Assembly: GCA_013538855.1 (NCBI GenBank)
Contig: JABXJS010000008.1
Span: 1-46,532, forward strand
Reading direction: 5' to 3'
DNA from: Herpetosiphonaceae bacterium
Lineage (GTDB): Bacteria; Chloroflexota; Chloroflexia; Chloroflexales; Herpetosiphonaceae
Length of the DNA: 46,532 nucleotides
Position 1 is the stretch's first letter; each line of letters starts with the position of its first letter. The notes beneath the pieces were generated by a model that saw nothing but the letters and a program-made list of their open reading frames with translations, ran no database searches and had not been told where the DNA came from. The translations under genes and the position numbers were made by a program. Positions 20,271 to 30,599 of the stretch are shown piece after piece.

Positions 20271-20523
20271 GTTGAACAGGAAGAGTACGCGCACACCAGC
20301 GCCAGAGAACGCGGGCCAGCGGCTGGAAGCCCGCCTCGCTATGGATGCGCCGAACGTGGCCTGTGAGTCGCTCGCCCGACCTGCCCAGGTGGCAGCTTAA
20401 GGCCAGCCGGGAGCGCCCGTTAGCGCGCAAGTTGAGTGGCGTCGGCCCAGGCAGGGCCGCGCAATCAAGGTGGTACCACGGGAGTTCAGCTTCTCGTCCT
20501 TGGCCGGACGAGGGGTTTTTTTT
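20271..20523 (+). promoter_or_regulatory. T-box leader of valS
   Basis: A tRNA-sensing riboswitch leader. The conserved entry element aggaagagta is at 20278-20287, inside stem I. A hairpin gcgggc/gcccgc (20311-20334) lies in its upper part. A specifier-loop-like cgaacGTGgcctgtgag places the valine codon GTG at 20356-20358. The T-box sequence aaggtggtaccacggg is at 20467-20482, and its TGGT (20471-20474) is complementary to an uncharged ACCA 3' end, as expected for tRNA-Val. A terminator follows. Uncharged tRNA-Val would stabilise the antiterminator and switch on valS. The specifier assignment is by eye; the T-box itself is clear. Confidence 0.93.
20493..20523 (+). terminator. T-box leader terminator
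   Basis: Stem ctcgtcc (20493-20499) / ggacgag (20506-20512) with a six-base loop, followed by ggg and eight T residues (20516-20523). It is mutually exclusive with the T-box antiterminator. Confidence 0.9.
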
Positions 20524-20552
20524 GGTCTTTTTTTCTCAGCGTGGAGGTTTGT

Positions 20553-23312
<2,760 letters not shown>

Positions 23313-25436: not shown

Positions 25437-26207
25437 TCAGCGCTCGCTGATCATCCCCAGCAGCTTGTCGTAGATCGCAGCGTGCGCAGCGAAGAGCGGA
25501 TGTCGCGACTGCTCGCCACGGCCCATCAGCGGCCAGTCAAGCTGATCGCCGCTCACGGTGCCAAAGCGCCCGCCGGCCCGCTCTAGCACCGGCACCGCGC
25601 CTGCGATATCCCACAGATTGGAGCGCCCGAGCACCGCGCCGGTTGCGCCGCCGCGCGCCACATAGCAGATGTTGGCGGCGGTGCTGCCAAGCGAGCGTGT
25701 CTTGCCAGGAAACTTGATCGCATAGCGGCGGTGGGCGTTCGAGGGCACCGCCATCCAGGCTTGGCTATCGAACGGCTCGTCGATCTCGGCGCTGATGACT
25801 TGGCCGTTGAGGGTGGCGGGACCGTCTAGCCCGACAAGGTAGCACTCATCAGTGACTGGCAGAAACACACAGCCGGCGCGCGGGTAGCCATCGACCACCA
25901 GGCCAATCGAGACACACCAGACCGGCAGCCGCTTGACAAACGAGCCGGTGCCATCGATTGGATCAAGCACCCACACACGCTGATCGGAGCGCACGGCCCC
26001 GCCGCCCTCCTCGCCCATGATCGCATCGTCAGGATAGGCCGTGCGGATCATGCGGCGTAGCTCACGCTCAACCGTCTCGTCAACATCGGTCACCCACGAG
26101 TGATCGGCCTTGCGGCGCGGCGGCGCAGCGTGCGCATCGTTAAACTGCTGTAAGGCCCAAGCGCCTGTCTCGCGCGCCCACTGTTCCATATATTGCGCTT
26201 CGTTCAT
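25437..26207 (-). CDS. Inositol monophosphatase/histidinol-phosphatase family protein
   Basis: A 256-residue Mg-dependent phosphatase of the IMPase superfamily. Metal ligands are visible as Glu in IMGEEGG, WVLDPIDGTGSF (DPIDGT) and the C-terminal WDIAGAVPVLERAGG. Some family members act as histidinol-phosphatase (HisN) or fructose-1,6-bisphosphatase, and the sequence alone does not decide. The start ATG overlaps the stop of the upstream gene as ATGA, so the two are translationally coupled. No separate ribosome binding site is needed or obvious. Confidence 0.93.
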   Translation of the reverse strand: MNEAQYMEQWARETGAWALQQFNDAHAAPPRRKADHSWVTDVDETVERELRRMIRTAYPDDAIMGEEGGGAVRSDQRVWVLDPIDGTGSFVKRLPVWCVSIGLVVDGYPRAGCVFLPVTDECYLVGLDGPATLNGQVISAEIDEPFDSQAWMAVPSNAHRRYAIKFPGKTRSLGSTAANICYVARGGATGAVLGRSNLWDIAGAVPVLERAGGRFGTVSGDQLDWPLMGRGEQSRHPLFAAHAAIYDKLLGMISER

Positions 26208-29200
26208 TCATCGTCCTCAGGGATGTCGGCGGCGCTGATCAGGCGCACCGCATTGACCGCAGGGTCAACGCGCAGGTCGCCTAGCTCAGGGAAGGCCACC
26301 AACAATAATTCTCGTCCATCGCGCACCCGTGTCTTCTTCACCACGCCCTCGCCATATGGCACACAGAAGACTCTGTCGCCAGGGTGAAAGCGGCTCTCAA
26401 CCTCGGCCTCCGGCTCTGGGAGAGGACGGGGCGCTTGCGCTCGGCGCGGCTGTGTGCGGCGCAGCTCGGCCTCGCGCTGTTCGCGCAAACGACGCGCTTT
26501 CTCCAGCAGCGCTGCTGGATCACTCGATGCCTCAAAGGTCGGCTCAGCTGGTTCATCCACCGGTGCACGCCGCGGCGGCGCGCCTGCATCGCGGCGGGCG
26601 GTGCTGTCGCTGCGGCGCGCTGGCTCGCCGGTGTCGCGGCGCTCCCACGGCGGTGGTTCGCCTGTGTCGCGGCGGGCGGTGCTGTCGCTGCGGCGCGCTG
26701 GCTCGCCGGTGTCGCGGCGGCTCGGCGGCGGCTCGGCGGCGTCGCGACGGGCGGTGCTGTCGCTGCGGCGCGCTGGCTCGCCGGTGTCGCGGCGGGCCTG
26801 CTGAGGCGTGGAGCGCTCGGCCGGACCACGGGTATCAGCACTTGCTGGGCCAGGCGCTGGGCCACCGCGTTTTGAGCGCTTCTTGCTCGCTTGATTTGAC
26901 TTGCCACGGCGCTGCGGCTCGGTACTGCTTGGCTCCGTGGGCGCGCTGCGCCAGGCAGCGTCGCGGTTGTCTGGTGGGCTAGATGCCGCCGCGCTACGCT
27001 GCTGCTGGTCGGCTGGGCGCGCTGGCGCAGCGCGCTGCGGCTCTGCGGGCGCTGGTCGCTGGCTATGCGGCAGATCGAGCCGCTGCTGATCAGGCGACGC
27101 AGGACTACGTGGCAGATCGCGGCGGCCCTGGGCCGGATGCGGCTCAGCCGGTGGAGCGCTGGCTGGTGCTTCGGCGCGGCGCTGAGAGCGCTCTTGGTAC
27201 GGCGGGCGCTCGTATGGCGGCGGCTCGCGCTTCGGCGGCAGCACAGTTGGTCCGCTCGACGGCGACTCGACCGGTGCGCTATCGCGCTGGCGCTCGGCGT
27301 TTGTGGGCTTCGGCACAGGACGGGGCGCTGCGCTCGACTGCGGCTTAGGCACTGGCCGCAGCGGCTGCTCGGCGCTGGCAGGGCGCGCCACCGAGCGGTT
27401 TGAGCGGCGGCGGCTCGTCGTCGCCGGGCGCTTGGTCGGCGCAGGCGGTGGCTCATCGCGGCGCACACGGCGCTGCGGTGGCGTCGGCGGCGGCAGCGCC
27501 GGTGGCTGCGACTCCAGGCGCATCGGCTGGGCCGGGCGACCCTGGACTTTTTCGGCAGGCGGGACGGGGGCCACCGGCGGCGGCGGCAGCTCGCGCTCGA
27601 TTGGGCGGCGCTGCGGACGCTGGCGCACACGGCCAAAGCGCCGCCGCTCGGCAACTTCGGAGGCCGAGGGCACCATGGATGAGCGCGTGCGCCGCTCGCT
27701 CGGGCGCTGAACCGGCGCAGCGCTGGTCTTGGGCGTGGCCAGCGGCATGAGAATTGTATCGGCCCATGCGCGCTCGGCCTGCACCACACCGCGCCAAAGT
27801 GGATCGTCCTGCACGGCCTGCGCCGCCAGCTCGGCCAGATGCAGCAGGGCCTCGAACTGCATGTACAGCTCATCGACCAGCCCGCGGCCGCCTGGCTGGG
27901 CCTCGACTATGTAGAGCACGCCATCGGACACACACGGCACGACATCAACCTCCGAGCAGCGCACCAGCAGTGGCAGCACCTCGGCCAGGGTCTCGCCTAG
28001 CTCCGGCGGAGCTTGCGGCGCGGCGATCCACACCGCTGGCGCGCTCCACTGCACGCGCAGCGGCGGGTCGAAGGGCATGCGCCGCAGCGTGCCGTCGCCC
28101 TGGATAGCCAGCCGCGCCACGATCTCCTCGCGCACCACCACGCGGCCAACGCCGAGCATATAGTCGGCGCGCCCGCCATCGAGCGAGCGCTCGGCCAGCT
28201 GCTCGCGGACCGTCACCTCGGTGCGGCGGACGGCGCGGGTGCGGCGCTGCGCATTGAGGTGCAGCACCACAGTCATATCGTCGGCCCAGCGCTCGACGTA
28301 GCCACCAAGCATGCCCGCGCCCGGATAGAAGCGGCGCTCGGCGCTGGCGGCGTCGATAGCGGCCAGCCGCTGCTCGCGCTCATCCTCGACCTCCACCACG
28401 CTGCCGCTGGCGCTGGCCGGATGCAGCGCGCTGTAGCTGTCGCGCTCGCCGCCGGGCGCGGCGACTGGCTGCCACTCGGCCTGCGATCCAGGCAGCGCCG
28501 CCAGCAAGCCTTTGCGCTCCAGGCGCTCGACGAGCGACTCGACCTCCCAGGACTGAATCTCGGCCCAGGTCAGCGGCGACTCCTCCGCAGCGCAGCGCAG
28601 GTGGGCGCTATCGACGTAGGTGTTGGCCTGCGCCACGGGCAGCGGCAGCGCCAGATTTGGCGTCACCAGCGCTGGCTGGGCACAGGCTGTCTGCGCAGCG
28701 ACCGATTGATCAGTGACCACCACCACGGCGCGGTAGCCGCTCGCCGCCAGCAGCGGCAAGGTTGCGCCAGCGATCGCGCCAACCAGCACCAGCGTGTGGG
28801 CCGGTGTGCCCGCCTGCGGAGCCAGCGCCACGCCGTGCGGTGCCGCGCGCTGCGCCACCACCGCTCGCTCCAGCGGCGCGCGCGCGCCAACATGCACCGT
28901 CAGGCCGGTTGCCCGCAGCGCCAGCGCCACATCGAGCGCCATCTGGATTGGATCGGCACCACCACGCCAGAGCGACCATGTCAGCGGCACGCGGCTCGTG
29001 TTGACGGCCACTATCGGCGGCAGCGCATCGACCAGCGTCGCCAACGTGCTCTCGACCTCGGCGAGCGGCGCGACGCTGAGGAAGAGCTGTGGTGGCCGCG
29101 CCAGCGGTCGCAGCCGCGCCACCCGCCGCAGCAGCCAGCGAATATGCCCCAGCGGCGCGCCAGGAGCCATGTCAAGCGCCGGCAGCACAACGCCCTGTAG

Positions 29201-29746
29201 CTCGGACCAGAGCCGCGCCCAGGCGCGATTGTGCAGCCGCAGCACGCGCTGGTGCAGCGTCTCTGGCGTCATCAGCACCAGCTTGGGCAGCTTGCGCGGC
29301 GGGCGGGTTGTGGCCGCAACCACTAGGTGCGGCAGCGCGCCACCAAGCAGGGCATCGATTGCGCGCACTGTGGCGGCCAGATCGTCGAGCGCTTGCTGGT
29401 GCGGAGCCAGCACCAGCAGCACGCCGTTTAGCTCGCGCACCTGCTCGGCCACCAGCAGCAGCAGCGCCGCCGGTCCAAGTGGTGGCGGGGCGATCAGCGC
29501 AATGCCGCCGCCACGCCGGGCGGTGGCCAGCGCCTCGGCCTGCCAGGCCAGCCCAATATCGCCAAGCAGCGCACGCCAAGCCACCGCTAGCTCAGGGTCC
29601 AGCGGCGTGCTCTGGGGCGCAGCGTCGGGCAGCGTCAGCTCGCCCATCTGAATCAGCGGCGACTGGGCCGAAGTCGCCAGACGCTGGCCAATCTGCTGCA
29701 GCAGGTCGCCCAGCGGTGTCTTTGCATTATTGGCGTGATCGTTCAT
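26204..29746 (-). CDS. Degenerate YprA/MrfA-type SF2 helicase with Arg/Pro-rich tail and Tudor-like domain
   Basis: A 1,180-residue protein that follows the Hrq1/YprA/MrfA DEAD-box helicase plan with its motifs worn away. AWQAEAL at 67-73 stands for the Q-motif region. APPPLGPAAL (86-95) replaces the Walker A SGKT. TPETLHQRVLRLHNRAW stands for motif Ib, VVLPALDMAPG for the DEAH region and LFLSVAP for SAT. Later, NTYVDSAHLRCAAEESPLTW matches the family's NPYVLxxHLxCAAxExPL. YIVEAQPGGRGLVDELY (about 615-635) matches the DUF1998-type end, without its zinc cysteines. A disordered Arg/Pro/Ser tail (about 675-1115) precedes a UvrD-tail-like FHPGDRVFCVPYGEGVV domain. Start uncertain: ATG at 29746, or GTG at 29752; neither has a clear ribosome binding site. 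Confidence 0.75.
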   Translation of the reverse strand: MNDHANNAKTPLGDLLQQIGQRLATSAQSPLIQMGELTLPDAAPQSTPLDPELAVAWRALLGDIGLAWQAEALATARRGGGIALIAPPPLGPAALLLLVAEQVRELNGVLLVLAPHQQALDDLAATVRAIDALLGGALPHLVVAATTRPPRKLPKLVLMTPETLHQRVLRLHNRAWARLWSELQGVVLPALDMAPGAPLGHIRWLLRRVARLRPLARPPQLFLSVAPLAEVESTLATLVDALPPIVAVNTSRVPLTWSLWRGGADPIQMALDVALALRATGLTVHVGARAPLERAVVAQRAAPHGVALAPQAGTPAHTLVLVGAIAGATLPLLAASGYRAVVVVTDQSVAAQTACAQPALVTPNLALPLPVAQANTYVDSAHLRCAAEESPLTWAEIQSWEVESLVERLERKGLLAALPGSQAEWQPVAAPGGERDSYSALHPASASGSVVEVEDEREQRLAAIDAASAERRFYPGAGMLGGYVERWADDMTVVLHLNAQRRTRAVRRTEVTVREQLAERSLDGGRADYMLGVGRVVVREEIVARLAIQGDGTLRRMPFDPPLRVQWSAPAVWIAAPQAPPELGETLAEVLPLLVRCSEVDVVPCVSDGVLYIVEAQPGGRGLVDELYMQFEALLHLAELAAQAVQDDPLWRGVVQAERAWADTILMPLATPKTSAAPVQRPSERRTRSSMVPSASEVAERRRFGRVRQRPQRRPIERELPPPPVAPVPPAEKVQGRPAQPMRLESQPPALPPPTPPQRRVRRDEPPPAPTKRPATTSRRRSNRSVARPASAEQPLRPVPKPQSSAAPRPVPKPTNAERQRDSAPVESPSSGPTVLPPKREPPPYERPPYQERSQRRAEAPASAPPAEPHPAQGRRDLPRSPASPDQQRLDLPHSQRPAPAEPQRAAPARPADQQQRSAAASSPPDNRDAAWRSAPTEPSSTEPQRRGKSNQASKKRSKRGGPAPGPASADTRGPAERSTPQQARRDTGEPARRSDSTARRDAAEPPPSRRDTGEPARRSDSTARRDTGEPPPWERRDTGEPARRSDSTARRDAGAPPRRAPVDEPAEPTFEASSDPAALLEKARRLREQREAELRRTQPRRAQAPRPLPEPEAEVESRFHPGDRVFCVPYGEGVVKKTRVRDGRELLLVAFPELGDLRVDPAVNAVRLISAADIPEDDE
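26591..26794 (-). repeat. In-frame 51-bp repeats in the disordered tail
   Basis: Three near-identical 51-bp copies at 26591-26641, 26669-26719 and 26744-26794. On the minus strand they encode RRDTGEPARRSDSTARRD. Spacings (78 and 75 bases) keep the frame. Confidence 0.9.
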
Positions 29747-29898
29747 TGGCACTGTGGTTGACTAGATTTGCGTACTGCTATTGTAGCAGGCTTCGGTGAT
29801 TCACGCCGCACAGATCCGCTAGTCTACAAGCCTGTATCCATGGCGACAAGCAGCGCGCTCCTGCTTAAGTCCCGCTCCTCAACTGGCTATCCAGCGGC

Positions 29899-29904: not shown

Positions 29905-29933
29905 CCATGTGTTTGAGCTACGAGGAGCCATCT

Positions 29934-30599
29934 ATGCCTTCATTGTCCTTGCGCACACTCTGTCTCGGTCTGCTGCTGCTCCTAGGTGCCTGTGGCGACT
30001 CCGCCGCCAGCACCGCGCCAATTGTTATCGACACCACCGCGACATCGTGCAGCGTCGCTCCCAGCGGCCAGCGCATCTATGTCGAGGGTGCACGCGCCCA
30101 GTTCTACGATCTGCAGGCACAGCAGTGGCTGCCAGTCATTCCTGCACCACCACGCTTTGTCAGCTCTGCTGCTATGGGCCATGTCTGGCTCAACAACGAT
30201 CAGCTGTTCACGGTGATGGCTGTCAGCACCATCGACACCGACCTACCCATCGCCGATGGCTGGCTCGCCGACCTACAGCAGGGCAGCGCCACCGATATCG
30301 ACGACCTCAGCCCAGCCGAGCGGAAAACCCTGCTCGCTGCGGCATCCCGCCAGCTGCGCCAGCAAACTATGGCGCGTGTGACCAAGGCCGCCGATCAAGC
30401 GCCCAACGCGGCCTACACCATCGCAACCGACTCAGGCATCGCCATCATCACCACCAGCGGCACGCCTGTGGCCAGGTTCAGCGCACCCGCCCGAACCTGT
30501 GAGAACCCCTGGAGCCACGCGAGCACTGGTATCTACATTCACGAGATCAACGGCAGCCAAGGTGGCCGCATCCGCTTCTTGCAGGTGCCCCAGCCTTAA
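29934..30599 (+). CDS. Putative lipoprotein of unknown function
   Basis: A 221-residue protein with a lipoprotein signal peptide: hydrophobic LCLGLLLLLGAC with lipid-accepting Cys20. The mature part begins with a Ser/Ala/Thr-rich linker. It continues with beta-rich segments (QRIYVEGARAQFYDLQAQQW, GHVWLNNDQLFTVMAV) that resemble propeller blades, but it is too short for a full propeller. GAGGAG precedes the ATG at 29934; the longer frame from 29907 would place charged residues before the signal. No family recognised. It probably sits on the outer face of the cytoplasmic membrane. Confidence 0.8.
   Translation: MPSLSLRTLCLGLLLLLGACGDSAASTAPIVIDTTATSCSVAPSGQRIYVEGARAQFYDLQAQQWLPVIPAPPRFVSSAAMGHVWLNNDQLFTVMAVSTIDTDLPIADGWLADLQQGSATDIDDLSPAERKTLLAAASRQLRQQTMARVTKAADQAPNAAYTIATDSGIAIITTSGTPVARFSAPARTCENPWSHASTGIYIHEINGSQGGRIRFLQVPQP

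Follow-up and report, generated by a model that had tools for sequence, protein, structure and literature searches.

The DNA analysed here (the window) is a stretch of 46,532 nucleotides from a Herpetosiphonaceae bacterium (contig JABXJS010000008.1). On its minus strand, at 26204..29752, lies the gene for a pseudohelicase, in the sense that the helicase fold is kept, the catalytic residues are lost and the gene is maintained. Translation from a GTG start gives 1182 amino acids, compared with 1180 from an alternative ATG at 29746, the start adopted in an earlier, sequence-only reading of this DNA, and the orthologous ORF is conserved in 76 of 80 Chloroflexales genomes. An inositol monophosphatase gene follows downstream on the same strand (25437..26207), its start overlapping the pseudohelicase stop (ATGA); this neighbour is shared with Herpetosiphon and absent next to the gene in other families, that is, it is local to Herpetosiphonaceae. 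Across families, no gene neighbour of the pseudohelicase is conserved, so that none ties the gene to repair or transcription, and no adjacent gene for the exonuclease MrfB, as in the MrfAB repair system, is found; given the lack of conserved neighbours beyond Herpetosiphonaceae, operon context was dropped as a functional clue. Elsewhere in the window, a lipoprotein-like ORF of 230 amino acids without a Pfam match (29907-30599) is divergent from the pseudohelicase gene, and a plus-strand valyl-tRNA synthetase gene (20436-23312) is overlain by a 767-amino acid antisense frame, also without a Pfam match (20559-22862), a typical high-G+C shadow ORF. A plasmid search gave no match.

The first 661 residues (27770..29752, minus strand) form an MrfA-fold core that consists of RecA1, a shortened RecA2, a winged helix, OB/CON and DUF1998/MZB domains, the inner borders being placed on the secondary structure with MrfA as the guide. 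Searches with the window protein alone are weak, yet all point one way, to YprA/MrfA: WHD_HRQ1 (E 0.0019) and MZB (E 0.11) both fall below the Pfam cut-offs, the MrfA structure 6znp is matched with E 0.0012, and TIGR03817 DECH_helic gives a local match over residues 376-566 (E 1.5e-13) with 49.9 bits, short of its curated cut-off of 874.1, the catalytic motifs being absent. At the level of the family, 31 of the 32 members match WHD_HRQ1 and 28 match MZB (E up to 0.01), with best E values of 1.7e-6 and 2.7e-7, respectively, and several orthologues exceed the MZB gathering score. The AlphaFold model of the core, built from an input of 32 orthologues, has a pLDDT of 89 and a pTM of 0.90; Foldseek places the MrfA structures first (PDB 6znp, 6znq and 6zns, E 2.0e-33 for 6znp to 2.9e-24), with the next family at 4.4e-11, and VIA-align gives Z 26.6 (rmsd 6.2 over 546 aligned residues) compared with Z 21.2 over 392 residues for the next family. 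The RecA1-RecA2-WH-OB-CON-DUF1998 fold is thus recovered by both structural methods, with the next families clearly lower. Profiles and structure together put the resemblance to YprA/MrfA well beyond chance. In a phylogeny with the canonical YprAs, the pseudohelicases form a single clade on a long branch (support 100/100). The protein belongs to the MrfA/YprA family by descent.

The catalytic apparatus of this family is gone. In the alignment columns, residues 88-95 (29468..29491, minus strand) read APPPLGPA in place of the Walker A motif T-x-T-A-S-G-K-T, the DExH box at residues 191-194 (29171..29182, minus strand) reads PALD, and a degenerate stretch at residues about 333-340 (28733..28756, minus strand) replaces the QxxGRxGR of motif VI; LGPA, PALD and NTYVDSAHLRCAAEESPLTW, the residues quoted in the sequence-only reading, are all present in the window ORF. 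The DUF1998/MZB domain (residues about 587-650; 27803..27994, minus strand) lacks the four zinc cysteines. When the pseudohelicases are aligned (L-INS-i) with canonical YprAs from the phylum, each of the 26 family members included lacks Walker A, DExH, QxxGRxGR and the C-x-C-x4-C-x2-C zinc site, whereas the canonical YprAs checked retain ASGK[TS], D-E-x-H, Q-x-x-GR-x-GR and the zinc cysteines wherever the sequence is complete. A pattern search for the four motifs in 48 distinct orthologues found none in place, only three chance strings elsewhere. None of the features required of an active MrfA/YprA (Walker A ASGKT, DExH Walker B, QxxGRxGR, C4 zinc site) is present and, judging from its residues, the protein is predicted not to be an active helicase.

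Among 151 columns conserved in canonical YprAs, 71 survive in no more than 10% of the pseudohelicases, the lost positions including the P-loop, the acidic pair of the DExH box, SAT, motifs V and VI and the zinc ligands, and 39 survive in 70% or more. The retained columns comprise the Q-motif HQxxA, motif Ib (TPxxLHxxxLxxHxxxW), H203, R210, R213, N377, HLxCAAxExP, T505, G536, W575 and PGGxG; the winged-helix region (residues about 376-430; 28463..28627, minus strand), identified by WHD_HRQ1 and TIGR03817, keeps NxYxxxxHLxCAAxExPL. Next to motif Ib, the pseudohelicases have two invariant arginines of their own, Arg172, where canonical YprAs have Pro, and Arg176. The sequence-only reading had proposed a non-catalytic DNA-binding scaffold, which is plausible in view of the conserved positions that remain in motif Ib and in the OB-CON-DUF1998 part.

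That reading missed the remainder of the protein, residues about 662-1182, in which a linker is followed by a Tudor domain at the C-terminus. The linker (residues 662-1081; 26510..27769, minus strand) is a low-complexity stretch of Pro, Arg, Ala and Ser that is probably disordered: residues 662-1118 are 79% P/R/S/A/Q/E/T and 9% hydrophobic, and TRF detects in its coding sequence a 75-bp minisatellite (26572-26795; 2.9 copies, 89% match) that encodes repeats of RRDTGEPARRSDSTA. From residue 1082, a conserved RRLREQRE helix precedes the Tudor domain (residues 1120-1182; 26207..26395, minus strand), and both are found in most complete orthologues. The AlphaFold model of the tail contains five strands with a pLDDT of about 90, and its best structural matches are the Tudor domains of PcrA (5dma) and UvrD (7egs, 9dqs, 6yi2), followed by CdnL/CarD; for 5dma, the Foldseek E value is 5.9e-4 and VIA-align gives Z 7.7 with an rmsd of 1.9 over 52 residues, where a Z below 8 is weak on its own. 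The tail profile retrieves the same PcrA/UvrD and CdnL/CarD names from the PDB sequences (E 0.06-1.4), and when it is run against the genomes, the second match is a protein of about 740-880 amino acids (E 1e-8 to 6e-4) that proved to be PcrA/UvrD with a Tudor domain at the end in all four cases read. A Pfam search with the C-terminal 100 residues returned nothing useful, and none of the canonical YprAs examined carries such a tail. The barrel is therefore related to the PcrA/UvrD-type Tudor in sequence as well as in fold.

The Tudor domain of PcrA, borne on a disordered linker, binds RNA polymerase (RNAP) and UvrB (PMC8318588, PMC5397179), and its residue K712 is required for RNAP binding (PMC5397179). 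With the Geobacillus stearothermophilus PcrA numbering (H681, W684, K712, L714; PMC5397179) mapped here onto the tail alignment, H681 corresponds to an invariant Cys and K712 to Leu, Val or Ile, and the aromatic character of W684 is kept as Y, W or H. Because K712 is not conserved, the partner of the tail may differ from that of PcrA. The published helicase-interaction motif did not appear in the 872 residues that were read of the window genome's RpoB. A Tudor fold alone is no proof of RNAP binding. The tail is the strongest clue to function.

The pseudohelicase is nearly universal in, and confined to, one order as far as the searches reach. It is present in all 56 good-quality genomes among the 80 from Chloroflexales, with a few copies being fragments at contig ends, and a search with the core gives a clear match in 40 of 41 relatives, at 46-56% identity within the family and roughly 30% over the order as a whole. 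Among 301 genomes of the phylum, only those of Chloroflexales give full-length matches; elsewhere the matches are partial, in proteins mostly of 750-1000 amino acids, and those that were read are canonical YprAs. A scan of 84,980 species, of limited sensitivity because it used one pattern only, yielded 33 confirmed loci, all under titles of Chloroflexales families or of unclassified Chloroflexi or bacterium MAGs. The complete orthologues span 865-1138 amino acids, with tails of variable length; the most diverged copies (L153, L037, L053, L057 and L058; Roseiflexaceae, small-genome lineage) still have a Tudor-like tail. Pairwise Nei-Gojobori dN/dS among close relatives is 0.02-0.22 for the core, 0.07-0.44 for the whole tail and 0.035-0.22 for the last 60 residues. 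The reading frame is under purifying selection. The sequence-only reading had described an MrfA-type helicase of full length, stripped of all its catalytic motifs but maintained rather than decaying; fold, profiles, phylogeny and selection bear out this description, as does the consistency of the motif loss, with all four motifs missing from each of the 48 distinct orthologues.

Taken with the tail, these observations make it probable that the protein is an ATP-independent, DNA-binding member of the MrfA/YprA family that is tethered by its Tudor domain to a partner in transcription or repair. Such a pseudohelicase would have originated once, in or before the Chloroflexales ancestor, and would have been kept since. 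The MrfA body, through the motif Ib surface and the OB/CON/DUF1998 canopy, would retain DNA binding, probably to single-stranded or damaged DNA, and would not translocate. By analogy to PcrA, the tail may dock the protein on its partner, for which RNA polymerase or a UvrB-like protein are the leading candidates, and docking together with DNA binding would probably make it a DNA-bound adaptor, not a motor. We infer this adaptor function from the features of the body and the tail.

Other explanations can be weighed against this one. The body could retain the part that MrfA plays and serve as a scaffold that presents DNA, without unwinding, to an MrfB/YprB-like 3'-5' exonuclease, with the Tudor domain as a secondary tether. 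A stand-alone RNase_H_2 protein of about 190 amino acids that resembles the YprB/MrfB core is encoded in 33 of 41 Chloroflexales genomes, many without a canonical YprA (in the window genome, G000:C240:52051-52497), and for Bacillus subtilis, an epistatic relation between mrfA and mrfB has been described, along with two-hybrid results that implicate the exonuclease core (PMC11194089). However, this gene is unlinked to the pseudohelicase in the loci read, some good-quality genomes with the pseudohelicase (e.g. G011, G014 and G038) show no RNase_H_2 match, and RNase_H_2 proteins are common among bacteria at large, with matches in 11 of 14 control genomes, so we regard a nuclease scaffold as rather unlikely. 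It is more doubtful still that the old helicase body is merely a structural platform of a transcription factor or nucleoid protein in which DNA binding is gone: the 71 nearly lost columns and the resemblance of the Tudor domain to CarD/CdnL fit such a role, but the best-kept residues include motif Ib and OB/CON/MZB positions.

That the protein regulates an active YprA paralogue as its partner, the second option of the sequence-only reading, is very improbable. Canonical YprAs of about 730-950 amino acids (counted at MZB E <1e-15, in ORFs of <1000 amino acids or cut by a contig end) do occur beside the pseudohelicase, in 17 of the 80 Chloroflexales genomes, but about 59 of the 76 carriers lack one, including the window genome and the sampled Herpetosiphon genomes; an obligate partnership is refuted by this distribution, and a partnership as the general role finds no support. 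The search of the window genome for an active paralogue turned up a single MZB protein, a Druantia DruE-like DUF1998 helicase of 1701 amino acids with intact motifs (L113 1094-6196, contig C11, minus strand). DruE-like proteins of 1600-2000 amino acids are patchy across Chloroflexales.

High-G+C DNA yields many long chance ORFs and the window protein alone falls below the Pfam cut-offs, but a decaying gene, a frameshift artefact or a chance ORF, to which we give practically no credence, is refuted by the 76 carrier genomes, the low dN/dS and the confident fold.

Pseudoenzymes are well studied for kinases; to our knowledge, few bacterial pseudohelicases are known. The one described here is nearly universal in the order of Chloroflexus, Roseiflexus and Herpetosiphon. 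Our literature search found no description of a Chloroflexales pseudohelicase, and a term search of the main text of a 2025 survey of nearly 52,000 YprA proteins found no mention of it as inactivated. In the Tudor-tethered DNA-binding protein favoured here, the part of MrfA that holds DNA occurs without the motor, which provides a natural test of the role of the OB-CON-DUF1998 canopy without ATP, and the tail offers a direct handle on the partner. A more specific version, which we put forward tentatively as a possibility, is that of an order-defining factor in transcription-coupled repair or R-loop processes, where an MrfA body with no working motor would be anchored to RNA polymerase (or UvrB) through the PcrA-like Tudor domain and, independently of ATP, would sense exposed or damaged DNA; most of the lineages concerned lack a canonical YprA.

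Several known systems invite comparison. The PriA protein of Deinococcus radiodurans has lost its ATPase and keeps DNA binding (PMC4504706), a bacterial precedent for the DNA-binding pseudohelicase proposed here, and is likewise a bacterial helicase whose helicase motifs were lost across a clade (PMC4504706), but it belongs to the PriA family and to replication restart, whereas the pseudohelicase comes from the MrfA family and is known here from sequence and models. Druantia DruE and other YprA relatives in defence have a DUF1998-type architecture in common with it; however, these are active proteins of 1700-2000 amino acids encoded in defence operons (PMC12458937), and the pseudohelicase has no PADLOC match. 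With PcrA/UvrD (5dma, 7egs, 9dqs, 7egt) it shares a Tudor barrel of five strands at the very C-terminus, behind a long low-complexity linker, but here the barrel is joined to an SF2 MrfA body instead of an SF1 motor, and the equivalents of K712 and H681 are replaced. MrfA/YprA itself (B. subtilis, 6znp/6znq/6zns) has the same overall fold, domain order, motif Ib region, HLxCAAxExPL and MZB PGGxG; the pseudohelicase differs in the absence of Walker A, DExH, SAT, motifs V and VI, the zinc cysteines and an mrfB neighbour, in its shortened RecA2 and in the addition of the linker and the Tudor tail.
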